DNA from: Bacteroidota bacterium
Lineage (GTDB): Bacteria; Bacteroidota; Bacteroidia; Chitinophagales; Chitinophagaceae
Direction: 5' to 3'
NCBI GenBank assembly: GCA_020161435.1
Contig: JAIUNV010000008.1
Span: 62,001-126,000, forward strand
DNA: 64,000 nucleotides
Part shown: positions 20,568-39,384 of the stretch, piece after piece
Numbering within the stretch: the first letter of the stretch is position 1
How the letters are laid out: every line of letters begins with the position of its first letter
Translations under genes and position numbers: made by a program
The notes under the pieces: generated by a model
Databases searched by the model: none
Seen by the model: only the letters and a program-made list of their open reading frames with translations
Told to the model about the DNA's origin: nothing

Positions 20568-20576
20568 ATTTTTTTG

Positions 20577-20947
20577 TGGAGCTGCAGGGAGTCGAACCCT
20601 GGTCCAAACAAAATCGCCAAACGCTTTCTACATGCTTATTTCATGATTCATTGTCGGGAATAAACAGGACCTGAACCTACCAATCTATTCCTTAGCTGTA
20701 TGAGTCTTAAGCCATCGTCACAGCCTTCGATGGCAGCAACCTGTGTTTGTTTTTGAGTCGGCGGCGGCGCATGGTAACAGGTCAACCTGCACGGCGGCCC
20801 TAATGACTGGCTAATCTCCGATTAGGCAGCCATGGCATACTGTGTATTGCCATTTGAATTTTGAATATTCAGATTATCGAGCTAATTATCCAACGCTCGG
20901 CATGCTTACACGTTCAAAGATCTTTGCTGTCAAAACCGGTCAGCCCC
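20577..20947 (-). ncRNA. ssrA: tmRNA (ssrA), tag GNTQYAMAA
   Basis: Transfer-messenger RNA for ribosome rescue. The minus strand begins GGGGCTGACCGG (from 20947) and ends CAGCTCCA (20577), so the 7-bp acceptor stem GGGGCTG/CAGCTCC closes. The T arm CAGGG-TTCGACT-CCCTG precedes the 3' end. The tag frame (20822-20851) reads GNTQYAMAA followed by TAA, close in form to other Bacteroidota tags that start with G and end in YAMAA or YALAA. About 371 nt is a normal length. After the discriminator A the DNA reads CAA, so the 3' CCA is not encoded and must be added. A terminator follows. Confidence 0.95.
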
Positions 20948-33245: not shown

Positions 33246-34592
33246 TCAATCCTTTTTATGGATGCGTTTATTACGTGCCTGCCTTACAGTGGTGTCAGTT
33301 ATTGCTTGCTGCGGGTGCGTTTTTGATACACCTATTTTTTGCGATAAATAAATGCCGGAATGTCCGCTGAAATAGTATGCGGTAAAAGTGGCAATGGCAT
33401 AGTAGAGCAGGTACTCTCCGCCAAAGAGTTCTACACCCATGATAGCGCAGGCAATGGGTGTATTGGTAGCGGCTGCAAATACGGCTATAAAGCCTAGCCC
33501 GGCCATTAAATCAACAGGTGCGCCGGTGAGCACGGCAATGCTGTTGCCTAAGGCGGCGCCAATAAAAAACAGCGGCGTTACTTCGCCACCTTTAAAACCC
33601 ATACCAATGGTAATGGCAGTAAATAACAGTTTCCAGGCCCAACTGAAAGTGGACACACCATCGGCTTCGAAAGCTGACACAATAGAGGCGCCGCCTGTGG
33701 GGTTGGTTACACCCAGCCCCAGATAATCCCTTGTACCCAGTAGCCATGTAAGTGCTATAATCATGAGGCCGCCGATGAAAGGCATCAACCATTTGATTTT
33801 TATCCAACGGTTGCTATAGTTTTTGATGGTATGAGAGAGCTCCGCAAAAATAAATCCGGTGATACCAAAGGCGATGCCAGCGGCTACTACCGTAAGCAAT
33901 AAAGCAGCATCCAAGTGCAGGTAAGGCATGCTGCTTTGCATTACATTGCTGAATGTGATGTGGTAGTGTGTATGCGTAATGCCATACGCACTACAGGTAA
34001 TATCTGCCAGTACCGCCGATATAAAGCAAGGCATCAATGCATGATGACTGATGCGCCCAACCGCCAGTACTTCCAGTGCAAATATGGCACCGGTAACAGG
34101 GGTGCCAAATACAGCGCCAAAGCCTGCAGCAATGCCACACATAAGCAAAGTGCTGGTATCTTGTTTGCTGAGTGTAAACCACCGGGCAAGCAGGCTGGCT
34201 ATACTGCCGCCCATTTGTACAGCAGTGCCTTCGCGGCCGGCAGAGCCACCAAACAAGTGGGTAATGATGGTGGTAAACAATACTAACGGCGTCATGCGTA
34301 ATGGAACACCGCCGCCCGGCTCATGAATTTCATCCATGATAAGGTTGTTGCCTGCTTCGGCTTTTTTGCCCCAGTATTGGTACAAAAAATAAATGAGCAC
34401 TCCTGCCAATGGCAATGCATACAATAGCCAGGTATACCGCCATTGCAACTTGGTGGCCTCATCCAGTAGCCATAAAAAAAGGGCTACCAATGAGCCTACC
34501 ACTAGTGCTAACGGCACCGACAGTAAAGTCCAGCGAAAGAGTTGCTGCGCAATAGTGAATTGTTCAAATTGTTTCCTGAAAGTGTTGATCAT
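33246..34592 (-). CDS. ClC-family transporter, probable fluoride exporter (CLC-F type)
   Basis: A 448-residue ClC membrane protein with about ten helices. Gating-glutamate motif FGGSAGREGTAVQMGG, GTPVTGAIFALE, and the late GMGFKGGEVTPLFFIGAALG motif are visible. The chloride-selectivity motif GSGIP of canonical ClC proteins is absent; the equivalent region reads GNNLIMDEIHEPGGGVP, as I recall for the CLC-F clade of F-/H+ antiporters. The mRNA leader carries a fluoride-riboswitch match, strong contextual support. The C-terminus is short and basic (KRIHKKD) without CBS domains. Confidence 0.88.
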   Translation of the reverse strand: MINTFRKQFEQFTIAQQLFRWTLLSVPLALVVGSLVALFLWLLDEATKLQWRYTWLLYALPLAGVLIYFLYQYWGKKAEAGNNLIMDEIHEPGGGVPLRMTPLVLFTTIITHLFGGSAGREGTAVQMGGSIASLLARWFTLSKQDTSTLLMCGIAAGFGAVFGTPVTGAIFALEVLAVGRISHHALMPCFISAVLADITCSAYGITHTHYHITFSNVMQSSMPYLHLDAALLLTVVAAGIAFGITGFIFAELSHTIKNYSNRWIKIKWLMPFIGGLMIIALTWLLGTRDYLGLGVTNPTGGASIVSAFEADGVSTFSWAWKLLFTAITIGMGFKGGEVTPLFFIGAALGNSIAVLTGAPVDLMAGLGFIAVFAAATNTPIACAIMGVELFGGEYLLYYAIATFTAYYFSGHSGIYLSQKIGVSKTHPQQAITDTTVRQARNKRIHKKD

Positions 34593-34627
34593 CCTACAAA
34601 TATTTTATCCGGCAACATTTCGTTGCC
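34593..34627 (-). promoter_or_regulatory. Putative expression platform between fluoride aptamer and start codon
   Basis: The RNA contains hairpin GGCAAC-GAAAU-GUUGCC (34611-34627) followed by AUUUGUAGG (34593-34601), which touches the AUG. AUUUGUAGG is perfectly complementary to CCUACAAAU (34639-34647), the 3' edge of the aptamer. Pairing would form a long helix over the hairpin, hide the start-codon region and break the aptamer. No strong T run follows the hairpin, so translational control is more likely than termination. Inference from base pairing. Confidence 0.55.
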
Positions 34628-34640
34628 CATGTTCGATTAT

Positions 34641-34707
34641 TTGTAGGCGCCATTAGTCGTTGCATGTATTGCACGACGGTTTGTGCATAGGAAGACACCA
34701 TTTCCCG
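34641..34707 (-). ncRNA. Fluoride (crcB-type) riboswitch aptamer
   Basis: Minus-strand RNA beginning GGGAAAUGGUGUCUUCC, then ACAAACCG, a hairpin GUCG-UGCA-AUACA-UGCA-A-CGAC, then CUAAUGGCGCCUACA. This follows the crcB motif order: P1 GGGA/UUCC closing an AUGG.GU loop, an AAACCG linker, P2, then a CUgAUG..GCCUAC 3' strand whose CGCC can pair with the P1-loop GGUG as the pseudoknot. The one notable deviation is CUAAUG where CUGAUG is usual. It lies directly upstream of the ClC gene, a known target class. Rfam RF01734 scoring would settle it. Confidence 0.85.
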
Positions 34708-34713
34708 TGATCA

Positions 34714-34721
34714 CAAATGTA
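34714..34721 (-). promoter_or_regulatory. -7 promoter element for the riboswitch-ClC transcript
   Basis: TACATTTG on the minus strand matches TAnnTTTG exactly. Transcription starting about 6-7 bases downstream would begin at the first bases of the fluoride aptamer. No clear TTG is found at the -33 position. Confidence 0.5.
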
Positions 34722-34807
34722 GGGCTGTTTTGTATAGGAAGAATTGCGAATTAGTGTACGGTAATGTTCAACCAAACGATGAGTGTGTAGCTAATTGATG
34801 AAGGCTG

Positions 34808-37729
34808 TCATTCGGCCACTTTGGTTTGCGGCAACAGGCTGTATGCTGAAGGCAAACCACCCCAGTTGATGCGAATTTCATCGAGGATTACACCGGGGTC
34901 AATGGCATATATATGCAGCATATGCACACCGGCAGATAGTTGCCCCAGTGGCCATTGGCGTATCGTTCTGTTGGCCAGTACATTTTGTTTCCATTCTTCA
35001 CTTCTGCCTACCGTTTTGGTATCAGTTATTTGTAAAGGCCCGTCATCGATTTGTATAGCATAGCGTAAGCTGTGCAGATTACTAACAGGATGTGTAGGCA
35101 GCGTAAATACATGGAGCGTTGCCGGTCGATTCTCAGTTTGGTAAAACGTATAACTCAATCGGGCTGCGGCAGTAGGAGGAATGCTGTCGATGTTATTGGA
35201 TGTGAGCACTTGCATGCCTTTGCCCGAATAGCCTAAGCCATGCACGGGCTGCCATTGTTGCTGCTCATGTTTTTTTTCTTGAGTAAACCCTGCTGCATGC
35301 ATTACCAGCAATCCATTGTTGGGTACAAAGCCATGAAAACCTTTTGGCAATGACTTTCGGAGTCTTCGTGCTTCGAGATGTATGGTTTGGGTAATACCAT
35401 TGGCAGCAATGCGAATGCTACCAGCGTTGCTGTTTTGTAACGGCGCTTTTGCCCAATTGATGTTGACTACAATCCTTTGTTCATTATGACCACTATTTGC
35501 ATTGAGTGTTCCATTAGCATGGCTGAGTTGTATCCAATCGGCAGATGCAGTTGCCTGCCATAGGATGGTTTGTGGCTGGCACAAATACACATCTATAAAA
35601 TATTGCTGTTGGAACATATCATCGAATGCTGGTAATTGATTGCGGTGAATGCTGTCGGCCGCTTCTATTGCCAGTTGCCATGCTTGACTTGGCTTTGCAA
35701 TTTCAGGCAATACCGGTGTTGGCAAAAACACAGGCAGGTTGCGTGTCTGCATCGACATCATGTGGTGCCATTTGCCGCCACTCATGGTTGTGTTGTAATG
35801 CCTTGTTAGTAGTGCAATGCTGTCGTAAGCAGCGTTTGCTTTTGCTGCATAATGAGTAGCACTCAATCGCTGCTGTTGTTGGTACAAACTGGCTTTGTGT
35901 TGGTACAACCATTTTTTGTTCATGAGTGCTGCACCCATCACCGGGTAATACATCAATTGGTAAAATGCATCGGCTCTGTGCAACGAAAAGTTTGGCTGCA
36001 ATTGTTGAACTGCTTTTTGCAATTGCTCATACATGTGGATGCGTTTGGCAGCCTCGTCGCCGTAGTAAAAATGATTGTATGCGGTTGCACTTGTTTTGGT
36101 GGTGGGTTCTGTTTGGCTCCAGCCCATGAATTCTGGTTTGCGTTCAAAAGCAAGCTGGTAATACTGCCACATGATGCGGCTCATTTGCGCAGCGTATTGA
36201 TGGCTCAGGTTGCTGGCCAGCCATTGCTGCAGGTGTTGCTGCACATAGCTGCTTTGGGTAAATGGTTTCGTTTGATAGGCCATATCCAGAAACATTTCGA
36301 TGTTGTACTCCAGCGGTTTTATATCTCCTACATTGAGTATCCACAGTTTGGTGGCCCCCTGCTGGTATGCCTTCATCATTTCTTCTCGAATGAGTGCAGG
36401 ATGCTGTGTAGACAGCCATAAATAATCGTGTGGCCGGCCCCAGTAAGAAGCGTGGTAATACACACCAGATCCGCCGCTGCGTTGTTGTTCTGCTGCATTG
36501 CTCAGGCGTTGTATATACCCATAGTTATCATCGGGCCATACAATGGTAATGTCGTCAGGAAGCTGAAGACCGTTGTCATAAATTTCCAGCACCTCTTTGT
36601 AAGCTGTAAATACCTGCGGAATACTTGTTACATTTTTATGGATATATGTGCCCAGCAACTGGCGTTGATCTTGTACAATTTGTTGTAGCAATGGCACTGC
36701 TTCTTTGGCATCTTTTACGCCTTCCATCTTGCTGTCGTGTACGCCCCGCATGCCCATACTGTACATGGCATTCAGTCCCTTACTTTCTTGTACCCTTTCT
36801 TTCCAGTATTGGTACACGCCAGGTTTGTTGGTTACATAATTAAACGGCCCCATGGTATTGCTGTGCCACTCACGGGTATTGGTGCGGAGCATAGGCTCGG
36901 CATGCGAGGTACCAATGACGATGCTATAGTCTTCAGCCATTTGTACATTGCCGGGTATAGTGAAAAACGGTTTGGTTACTTCATGCATGGCAGGCCAAAT
37001 CAGGTTGGCTTTCAGGCGCAGTAGCAGTTCAAAAACTTTTGCATAGGTTTTCGGGCCAATATCGCCGGTTTCGGGTTCGAAAGTGTTGGCCGCCCAAGGT
37101 TGCAGGCCCCAGTCTTCATCGTTAATAAAAATGCCGCGGTATTGTACAGCAGGTGGAGAGGAAGTGTAACTGCCTTCGCTGATGTACAATGCTTTTTTTC
37201 TGGTGGGGCTTACATCGGCCCACCAGTAAAATGGTTGTACTCCCAATTGTTTCGATAATTCAAAAATACCATAGGCTGTACCACGGGCATCGCTACCGGC
37301 AATGATGAGTGCCCGGGCTGTACCGGGAAATGGATGCTCTAGGGTAGTGATGGTAAAGCATTCCCATTTGCCTTGTATGGCTGTTACATTCAATCGCTTT
37401 GATGCTACAAGAGCATCAATCCATTTATTGTGCCCGATAGTGCCGGCAATCACCGTGTATTTACCCGTTGGTTGATGTTGCAGGGGCAGCTGTTTGCCCG
37501 TCAGCAATGCAATGTCGTTACAAAAAGCTTTAGCGGCTATTTGCACCACACTGGCGTCAGTACTGTCTGTAAGCAAGTTGGCCAATCTACCCGATGCTAC
37601 CAGTGGAAAACTGTTGGCTGCAGGTTGTTCGGAAATGCGCAGTCTAATTTGCTGTGCTGCAGCTGGCAGCAATAAAAAGATGCTGGCAGCCATGGTTAGC
37701 AAATGCATCCTGAATGCAAGCTGTTTCAT
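34808..37729 (-). CDS. GH115 family glycosidase (probable alpha-glucuronidase)
   Basis: A 973-residue secreted enzyme. Signal peptide (residues ~1-25, ending LLPAAAQQ). Family-115 blocks include YGIFELSKQLGVQPFYWWADV, RGIFINDEDWGLQPWA, LKANLIWPAMHE, WPDDNYGYIQRL, SGGSGVYYHASYWG, and PHDYLWLSTQHPALIREE. A C-terminal beta-rich region (~775-973) completes the fold. Characterised GH115 enzymes remove alpha-1,2-linked (4-O-methyl-)glucuronic acid from xylan side chains; some act on arabinogalactan. It is 5 bases downstream of the GH43 gene on the same transcript. Confidence 0.9.
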   Translation of the reverse strand: MKQLAFRMHLLTMAASIFLLLPAAAQQIRLRISEQPAANSFPLVASGRLANLLTDSTDASVVQIAAKAFCNDIALLTGKQLPLQHQPTGKYTVIAGTIGHNKWIDALVASKRLNVTAIQGKWECFTITTLEHPFPGTARALIIAGSDARGTAYGIFELSKQLGVQPFYWWADVSPTRKKALYISEGSYTSSPPAVQYRGIFINDEDWGLQPWAANTFEPETGDIGPKTYAKVFELLLRLKANLIWPAMHEVTKPFFTIPGNVQMAEDYSIVIGTSHAEPMLRTNTREWHSNTMGPFNYVTNKPGVYQYWKERVQESKGLNAMYSMGMRGVHDSKMEGVKDAKEAVPLLQQIVQDQRQLLGTYIHKNVTSIPQVFTAYKEVLEIYDNGLQLPDDITIVWPDDNYGYIQRLSNAAEQQRSGGSGVYYHASYWGRPHDYLWLSTQHPALIREEMMKAYQQGATKLWILNVGDIKPLEYNIEMFLDMAYQTKPFTQSSYVQQHLQQWLASNLSHQYAAQMSRIMWQYYQLAFERKPEFMGWSQTEPTTKTSATAYNHFYYGDEAAKRIHMYEQLQKAVQQLQPNFSLHRADAFYQLMYYPVMGAALMNKKWLYQHKASLYQQQQRLSATHYAAKANAAYDSIALLTRHYNTTMSGGKWHHMMSMQTRNLPVFLPTPVLPEIAKPSQAWQLAIEAADSIHRNQLPAFDDMFQQQYFIDVYLCQPQTILWQATASADWIQLSHANGTLNANSGHNEQRIVVNINWAKAPLQNSNAGSIRIAANGITQTIHLEARRLRKSLPKGFHGFVPNNGLLVMHAAGFTQEKKHEQQQWQPVHGLGYSGKGMQVLTSNNIDSIPPTAAARLSYTFYQTENRPATLHVFTLPTHPVSNLHSLRYAIQIDDGPLQITDTKTVGRSEEWKQNVLANRTIRQWPLGQLSAGVHMLHIYAIDPGVILDEIRINWGGLPSAYSLLPQTKVAE

Positions 37730-37734
37730 AGTTA

Positions 37735-39384
37735 TTACTTTTCTTGTGCAAACGCTACATCATCGATGTGGCAATAGGCAAGAGCATTGGCTTTTATGTA
37801 AAAACCAATATCTGCCTGTCCATTTTTTACCAGTACATTATTTAGGGTTACCTTGTGCCATGTTTCGGTGTGGCTGTGCAGGGGCAGGCGATAGGTTTGC
37901 TGATTGCTTGTGGCAAACAGTTCCAGTTTTTCTATACCGGCGCTGTATTTTACCATTGCAGAAAAAGTGTAACGTCCATTGGGTAGGGGCACATGATATG
38001 TGCTGCTGATTGTTTGGTACACTTTTCTTTCAAAAGCCGTTTTATCACTCATGCACAAGCTTCGTTCCCCTGTTACCATGTGTCTTTCTGCCGTTGTATT
38101 GGCATGATTCAGTATTGGTGAAATTGATGTATCAAGACTGATGTTGTTGCCTTGCAATACTTCGCTATGCCAGCCGGTGAGCTGTTGCTGCACTGGTTTT
38201 ACCAAACTGGGTATTGCTTTTCTGTCAGCTTCAAAACTGGGATTGAGTGCATAATTGTTGAGCGGATTTACTTTCCAAACTCCGGTTGATGCATTCAGGT
38301 CCCATGCATGCAATGAATTAAAAATGGGCAAACTGTCTTCGAAGGAAAGCGGTACCCATTGGTTATAGCCAAGACCATTGCCGGCAAAGTTGGCCCAGCG
38401 ATCGCCGCAATACAAAATGCTGGTTTGCTTACTGCCATGGATGCTTACAAAAAAGCCCGTTTGCGACACGTGTGCATAGTCGAATTCGCAACCTTTCATT
38501 ACCTGCATGTTGTTGACGGGTGTGTAGGGCCCACGAATATCATTCGCCACCAGATAGTAGGCATACGAAGCATCCCAGCCATAAATATTGGAGGCAGCCA
38601 TGTAGTAACGACCGTTGTATTGAAACATGCAATTGCCTTCACGGCTTTCACCTTCAAACACCTTGGTGCAATCGAGTAAACCAACCTGACCATTGACTAC
38701 TCCAATTTCAGAAACATAGATTTTGTTTCTGCCTTTACCATAAGAATATACGAGAAATGATTTGCCTGTTGTTTCGTCGGTAAATACAGTTTGGTCGCCA
38801 GTATTGCTGGTACCAATCATAGATTGCATGTTGATTTTGCGATGCCATGTAAACGGTCCTGTTGGTTGTTTGCTTACAGCAATCAATACTTCATAACCAT
38901 GCTGCACCAGCATGGCATATTGTTGTGTTTCGGGCAGGTAAGCGACGCCCAATCGGCCCACCCAGGTATTACGGCCATCCTTTAGTACTTCACTTTTGCT
39001 AAGTACATTGGCTTCAAAAGTCCAGTGCACTAAGTCGGTTGACGAATAGCATGTGACAGCTTCAAATGTGCATTGATTAAAAGTCTTGGTAGGATTATTT
39101 CGAAAACTGTCTGCTTCTGCATAGTGTACGCCGTACCAATAATATTTTTCTTCACCAGTTGCGTTGGCAAAACGGAAAATACCCCCACCTTGACTATTGA
39201 TGGGTTTGCCATCATTGGTGTACCAAAACCGGTCGTTTTTGATAGTTGCAAATTGAGCATGTATCAAGCTGCTACGCAGCAGGAATGTACAAGCTAACAA
39301 AACTGCAAACCTTGCTGAATAAAAGTGCGAATGAAGTATAGGCAAATACTGCATACAATCGTTGTTGTGCTGTGGAAAGTACAA
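37735..39384 (-). CDS. GH43-like beta-propeller glycosidase with C-terminal carbohydrate-binding-like domain
   Basis: A 549-residue secreted protein. The signal peptide is near residues 25-44 (FAVLLACTFLLRSSLIHAQ), so the start may be the ATG at 39354 (MQYLPILHSH) rather than 39384. The catalytic region (~50-365) is a five-bladed propeller with GKPINSQGGGIFRF and KYYWYGVHYAEA; this start resembles exo-beta-1,3-galactanase-like members (GH43_24/34). The C-terminal ~175 residues resemble a beta-sandwich carbohydrate-binding domain (NPSFEADRK ... CHIDDVAFAQE). Paired with GH115. The exact linkage specificity is unknown; beta-xylosidase or galactosidase are options. Confidence 0.75.
   Translation of the reverse strand: MYFPQHNNDCMQYLPILHSHFYSARFAVLLACTFLLRSSLIHAQFATIKNDRFWYTNDGKPINSQGGGIFRFANATGEEKYYWYGVHYAEADSFRNNPTKTFNQCTFEAVTCYSSTDLVHWTFEANVLSKSEVLKDGRNTWVGRLGVAYLPETQQYAMLVQHGYEVLIAVSKQPTGPFTWHRKINMQSMIGTSNTGDQTVFTDETTGKSFLVYSYGKGRNKIYVSEIGVVNGQVGLLDCTKVFEGESREGNCMFQYNGRYYMAASNIYGWDASYAYYLVANDIRGPYTPVNNMQVMKGCEFDYAHVSQTGFFVSIHGSKQTSILYCGDRWANFAGNGLGYNQWVPLSFEDSLPIFNSLHAWDLNASTGVWKVNPLNNYALNPSFEADRKAIPSLVKPVQQQLTGWHSEVLQGNNISLDTSISPILNHANTTAERHMVTGERSLCMSDKTAFERKVYQTISSTYHVPLPNGRYTFSAMVKYSAGIEKLELFATSNQQTYRLPLHSHTETWHKVTLNNVLVKNGQADIGFYIKANALAYCHIDDVAFAQEK

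Follow-up and report, generated by a model that had tools for sequence, protein, structure and literature searches.

A fluoride riboswitch leader in Chitinophagaceae predicted to mask the start region of a CLC-F-type transporter gene

In the fluoride riboswitches of B. cereus crcB and T. petrophila, the 3' edge of the aptamer, including the 3' strand of its pseudoknot, is also part of a competing downstream helix, and these systems use an intrinsic terminator. Covariation over this overlap between the platform and the pseudoknot strand has been described for the terminator type (PMC13273304), and in a fluoride riboswitch the competing strand can invade only once the linchpin has broken (PMC11077080). 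Translational fluoride riboswitches are known from P. syringae and B. pseudomallei, and these two served as translational controls in PMC13273304, which is the sole full-platform covariation study of fluoride riboswitches in the literature searched and which filters for the terminator type. F. johnsoniae has no Shine-Dalgarno (SD) sequences, and its initiation is tuned by structure in the start-codon region (PMC6847099); masking of the start is thus a sensible control point.

We analysed the leader of a CLC-type gene on the minus strand of a 64,000-nt stretch of Bacteroidota DNA (the window), the features of which are collected in Table 1. Like the riboswitches of B. cereus and T. petrophila, this leader shares the 3' edge of its aptamer with a downstream helix. 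Unlike them, it lacks a U-tract and its helix ends at the start codon, and it takes up two pseudoknot bases plus U48 where the terminator type takes six. The riboswitches of P. syringae and B. pseudomallei are of the same aptamer class, have no fluoride-dependent termination and share the expected ON logic. Set apart by description rather than base by base, the Bacteroidota leader differs from these two in that it belongs to an SD-less phylum and hides the stretch directly next to the AUG, and in that the platform is conserved and covarying over one bacterial family. Judging from the sequences of the locus and its relatives, we consider it likely, with a probability of about 0.85, that the leader acts as a fluoride riboswitch and switches on the translation of a fluoride exporter of the CLC-F type.

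Table 1. Features of the riboswitch leader and the gene downstream of it (window coordinates)
Feature	Position	Strand	Basis or remark
-7 promoter box TACATTTG, Bacteroidota TAnnTTTG	34714..34721	-	exact match
Fluoride aptamer	34637..34714	-	RF01734 model positions 1-64, of which 1-9 are unstructured leader
Predicted +1, about 3 nt ahead of P1	34709	-	inferred from T-12/G-5 numbering (PMC6847099)
Pseudoknot 5' strand GGUGUC, within P1 loop	34694..34699	-	6/6 pairs with GGCGCC
Pseudoknot 3' strand GGCGCC	34646..34651	-	sequence; final CC doubles as the start of the sequestering helix (its bases 1 and 2)
U48 equivalent, linchpin partner of A40 (34653)	34645	-	numbering by homology to T. petrophila/B. 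cereus aptamer
Helix 5' arm CCUACAAAUA	34638..34647	-	10 bp perfect; covariation
Internal hairpin GGCAAC-GAAAU-GUUGCC, between arms	34611..34627	-	predicted in MFE and centroid
Upstream ORF, 13 codons, MGNEMLPDKIFVG	34589..34630	-	sequence; UGA overlaps CLC AUG
Helix 3' arm UAUUUGUAGG, adjoining start codon	34593..34602	-	folding; AUG at 34592
CLC-F-type fluoride/proton antiporter, 448 aa	33246..34592	-	Pfam Voltage_CLC (PF00654), 245 bits

The original prediction had recognised the layout of a crcB/fluoride aptamer from the sequence alone, and a cmscan search confirmed it with a full-length match to RF01734 (34714-34637, minus strand) that scored 45.1 bits, above the gathering score of 34 (E 2.9e-9), and was the only RF01734 match in the whole genome. 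Both linchpin bases, A at 34653 and U at 34645, can be read from the sequence under the homology numbering, and the latter is common to the bound aptamer and the sequestering helix. The pseudoknot, which joins the P1 loop to the 3' edge, forms all six of its pairs in 133 of 142 CLC leaders from relatives. On these sequence features, membership in the fluoride riboswitch class appears secure, ligand binding excepted.

The exact TAnnTTTG box that had been taken to place the transcription start at the beginning of the aptamer is present, and when numbered as in F. johnsoniae, with the T at -12 and the G at -5 (PMC6847099), it predicts a +1 near 34709. The 40 nt upstream of P1 contain 100 exact boxes across the 142 CLC leaders, against an expectation of 0.011 per leader from coding-sequence controls, and they mostly end 6-16 nt before P1, so that their distance from the aptamer is nearly fixed. 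Two large ORFs, putative glycoside hydrolases by their look, lie upstream of the riboswitch (34808-39384, minus strand). Since about 90 nt separate the end of the nearer ORF from the -7 box, the CLC gene is probably under its own promoter. Elsewhere in the window there is a tmRNA gene (20574-20947, minus strand, 126 bits).

The gene begins 52 nt after U48. That it encodes a CLC-F-like transporter, as originally suggested, is borne out by the Pfam match and by phmmer, which found its best solved relatives to be the CLC-F antiporters 6d0j, 6d0k and 6d0n (E 6.7e-65), with the likeness to 6d0j extending over residues 17-421. The phmmer alignment also shows that the glutamates E118 and E318, whose roles in CLC-F are described in PMC12035849, are conserved as E121 and E337. 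Protein relatives come mostly from Chitinophagaceae, and the closest named record, from a metagenome-assembled genome, is 99% identical. At the position of the chloride-coordinating serine, the protein differs from 6d0j in having Asn82 instead of Met (M79). Asn at this position is found in a second group of CLC-F proteins, and because of it we name the protein CLC-F-type by homology and not as a proven CLC-F. The same genome also encodes a Fluc (CRCB) protein (G000:C2:617035-617370), and the genome search gave no RF01734 match near that gene.

Folding placed the 10-bp helix between CCUACAAAUA and UAUUUGUAGG in both the minimum free energy (MFE) and the centroid structures. The prediction of a perfect complementarity between the aptamer edge and the segment flanking the AUG was thus correct as to the pairing and one base pair short as to its length, which had been given as 9 nt. 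The partner does touch the start codon, its 3' arm ending at the base immediately before the AUG, and the GGCAAC/GUUGCC hairpin was recovered between the two arms as proposed. The 71-nt element has an MFE of -20.3 kcal/mol (z -4.0), a stability reached by 0 of 200 shuffles, and the pattern CCTACAAAT-N25..55-ATTTGTAGG occurs a single time in the 4.19-Mb genome, at this locus, with 0 occurrences of the reversed-pattern control. The last two bases of the 3' strand of the pseudoknot open the 5' arm, which also contains the U48 equivalent; C46, C47 and U48 (34647-34645) are accordingly common to aptamer and helix. When the aptamer edge was locked in folds computed without the pseudoknot, the accessibility of positions -9 to +3 rose from 0.16 to 0.29 at the locus and from a mean of 0.29 to 0.44 over the leaders, a modest gain that speaks against the proposed switch.

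Loci from relatives were gathered by RF01734 searches at family, phylum and class level, by protein similarity and by direct extraction, giving 196 loci with a recognised aptamer, of which 169 were CLC-linked; start codons were assigned by similarity, and in most analyses aptamers were located by regular expression, so that some loci were missed. After removal of duplicates and application of a spacer limit, 142 distinct CLC leaders remained. The complementarity was not lost in these homologues: the score for pairing between the edge and the start exceeded the 95th percentile of the shuffle null in 95% of the 142 leaders, the MFE structure paired the edge with the start region in 133, and in 138 a distance of 1-8 nt separated the 3' end of the partner from the AUG downstream of it. 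Just 15 of the 142 have an SD-like motif. Outside this family, some Bacteroidota CLC leaders (L134, L138, L139 and L259) have no upstream partner, and for this reason we do not regard the platform as phylum-wide.

The pairing also covaries in relatives. In the helix register, which is biased because it was chosen by pairing, nt 49 forms 88 A-U, 32 G-C and 22 G-U pairs and 0 A-C combinations in the 142 leaders, nt 50 forms 130 C-G and 12 A-U pairs, and nt 51 forms 119 A-U and 11 U-A pairs. We therefore place more weight on an independent register, in which the final AGG ahead of the start is the sole anchor for the partner (133 leaders, 107 unique). In this register, pairing reached 89.7% compared with 34-43% when it was slid by 1-3 nt, and the covariation of 0.282 (shuffle mean 0.128, maximum 0.155) lay above all 300 shuffles and all slid registers. 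Double-change cells numbered 88 against a maximum of 42, and nt 49 again showed no A-C combination (83 A-U, 30 G-C, 20 G-U, 0 A-C). The raw association is very strong (Fisher 8e-17) but uncorrected for relatedness. On the CLC protein tree, the 5' side of nt 49 accounts for 26 changes and the 3' side for 14, and the tree-aware independent pairs gave about six changes in the same direction and none in the opposite one, with a median p of 0.016-0.031 that is modest because informative pairs are few. The swap at nt 50 is a single event on this tree.

From these observations we propose a mechanism in which transcription would begin just ahead of the aptamer, as the promoter box suggests. In the absence of fluoride, UAUUUGUAGG would be paired with the final two bases of the pseudoknot, U48 and the seven bases that follow, and the resulting 10-bp helix, a structure indicated by complementarity and covariation, would hold its 3' end against the AUG and presumably block ribosome loading. 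With fluoride, by analogy with the known aptamer mechanism, the pseudoknot and the A40-U48 linchpin would hold CCU, so that the helix could not nucleate and the start region would be freed. The great stability of the helix suggests that the choice probably falls while transcription is under way and the 3' arm has yet to be synthesised. A Shine-Dalgarno sequence would be unnecessary, because the switch masks the initiation region itself. The shared C46, C47 and U48 suggest that the bound aptamer and the helix are mutually exclusive. The exclusion originally envisaged between pseudoknot and helix would apply, by base overlap, to the last two pseudoknot pairs and U48 and not to the whole pseudoknot; with 2 of 6 pairs overlapped, it is partial on paper and would depend largely on the linchpin. 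The start-region pairing, kept by matched mutations in more than 100 related leaders, is very probably the on/off switch for the pump.

Other readings of this leader were weighed against that proposal. The complementarity might be expected by chance or as a by-product of aptamer conservation, given that the aptamer largely dictates CCUAC and that the leaders are rich in A and T. The partner, however, is not part of the aptamer and in the independent register it covaries with the edge, the TTTGTAGG motif at the start is absent from 15 CLC homologues without a recognised aptamer, and Fluc-linked leaders score no higher than shuffles at the same upstream position. Covariation already argues against this explanation, and we regard it as scarcely credible. 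It is also very improbable that the 10-bp helix acts as a terminator, as in B. cereus and T. petrophila, even though its strand logic resembles that of the known terminator platform (PMC13273304; PMC11077080). A search of the leader region (34400-34800) for intrinsic terminators found none, and no U-tract follows the helix, since it is succeeded by AUGAUCAACACUUUC at this locus and almost directly by the start codon in relatives.

A reading that retains the helix and shifts its effect would have it mainly lower the mRNA level, because a message that is not translated lies open to termination by Rho or to cleavage by RNase. Coupling to Rho and to decay can occur in translational riboswitches, and nothing in the leaders speaks against this; the partner is, however, held against the AUG, which indicates initiation as the primary target, and we consider an effect mainly on mRNA level rather unlikely. 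The 13-codon upstream ORF, ending as it does on the start of the CLC gene, could instead drive expression by translational coupling and melt the helix. Such start-ending ORFs occur in 40 of the 142 leaders compared with 27 +/- 3.8 in dinucleotide shuffles, but the trait is scattered on the tree (27 changes against 31-38 with random labels), and constitutive translation of the ORF would defeat control by fluoride. In view of the weak excess and this scatter we rejected upstream-ORF coupling, to which we give very little chance, and the ORF is probably incidental. The start-ending ORFs of these 40 leaders do show an excess of one reading frame. Masking of the CLC start by the aptamer edge remains our preferred explanation.

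Aptamers were also found ahead of other genes. Fluc (crcB) leaders mostly have CUCCUGUxx as their edge, and its best partner often spans the AUG and codons 2-3, as in the pairing of UCCUGUACAU with AUGUACAGGA in L001, L100 and L101 and of ACUCCUGUUCA with UGAACAGGAGU in L109; the pairing exceeded the 95th percentile of the null in 18 of 34 Fluc leaders, the choice of start being uncertain for some loci. In seven leaders (L001, L100, L101, L109, L122, L243 and L282) the edge is complementary to a Fluc start reading AUG-UAC-AGG or AUG-AAC-AGG, and the switch strand is itself coding sequence. A sample of Fluc genes from the same family consisted almost wholly of aptamer-less ones; codon 3 was AGG in three of the 28 without an aptamer and thus usually another codon, and the N-terminus of aptamer-less Fluc proteins in the family is mostly MIK or MLK. 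A common SD-independent rule for Bacteroidota, in which the edge pairs with the flank of the AUG or with the AUG itself, the CLC partner lying just upstream and many Fluc partners covering the AUG and codons 2-3, seems to us evenly balanced between right and wrong. If it is true, the riboswitch dictates the N-terminus of Fluc.

Two RF01734 aptamers (L177 and L199) precede a gene of neither the CLC nor the Fluc type, with an N-terminus like KKATIFVVLLGCTSLFSDMTYE. CLC genes linked to an aptamer are present in these genomes too; this is possibly a third fluoride-linked membrane protein. In L238 and L266, the aptamer lies about 160 nt before an ORF starting MKITKVEAIEILDSRGNPTIEADLT, by its appearance a putative enolase. 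Enolase is inhibited by fluoride.

In the literature searched, which included few subscription papers, we found no description of a start-masking platform in Bacteroidota, and as far as that literature shows, a conserved, covarying and SD-independent platform of this kind appears to be new. Riboswitch expression platforms have been hard to align, yet the translational fluoride platform described here is alignable and shows covariation throughout one family. It lets riboswitch control of SD-less initiation be tested directly, including whether two pseudoknot bases and the linchpin suffice for switching, and it may offer ready-made fluoride-inducible parts for Bacteroidota.
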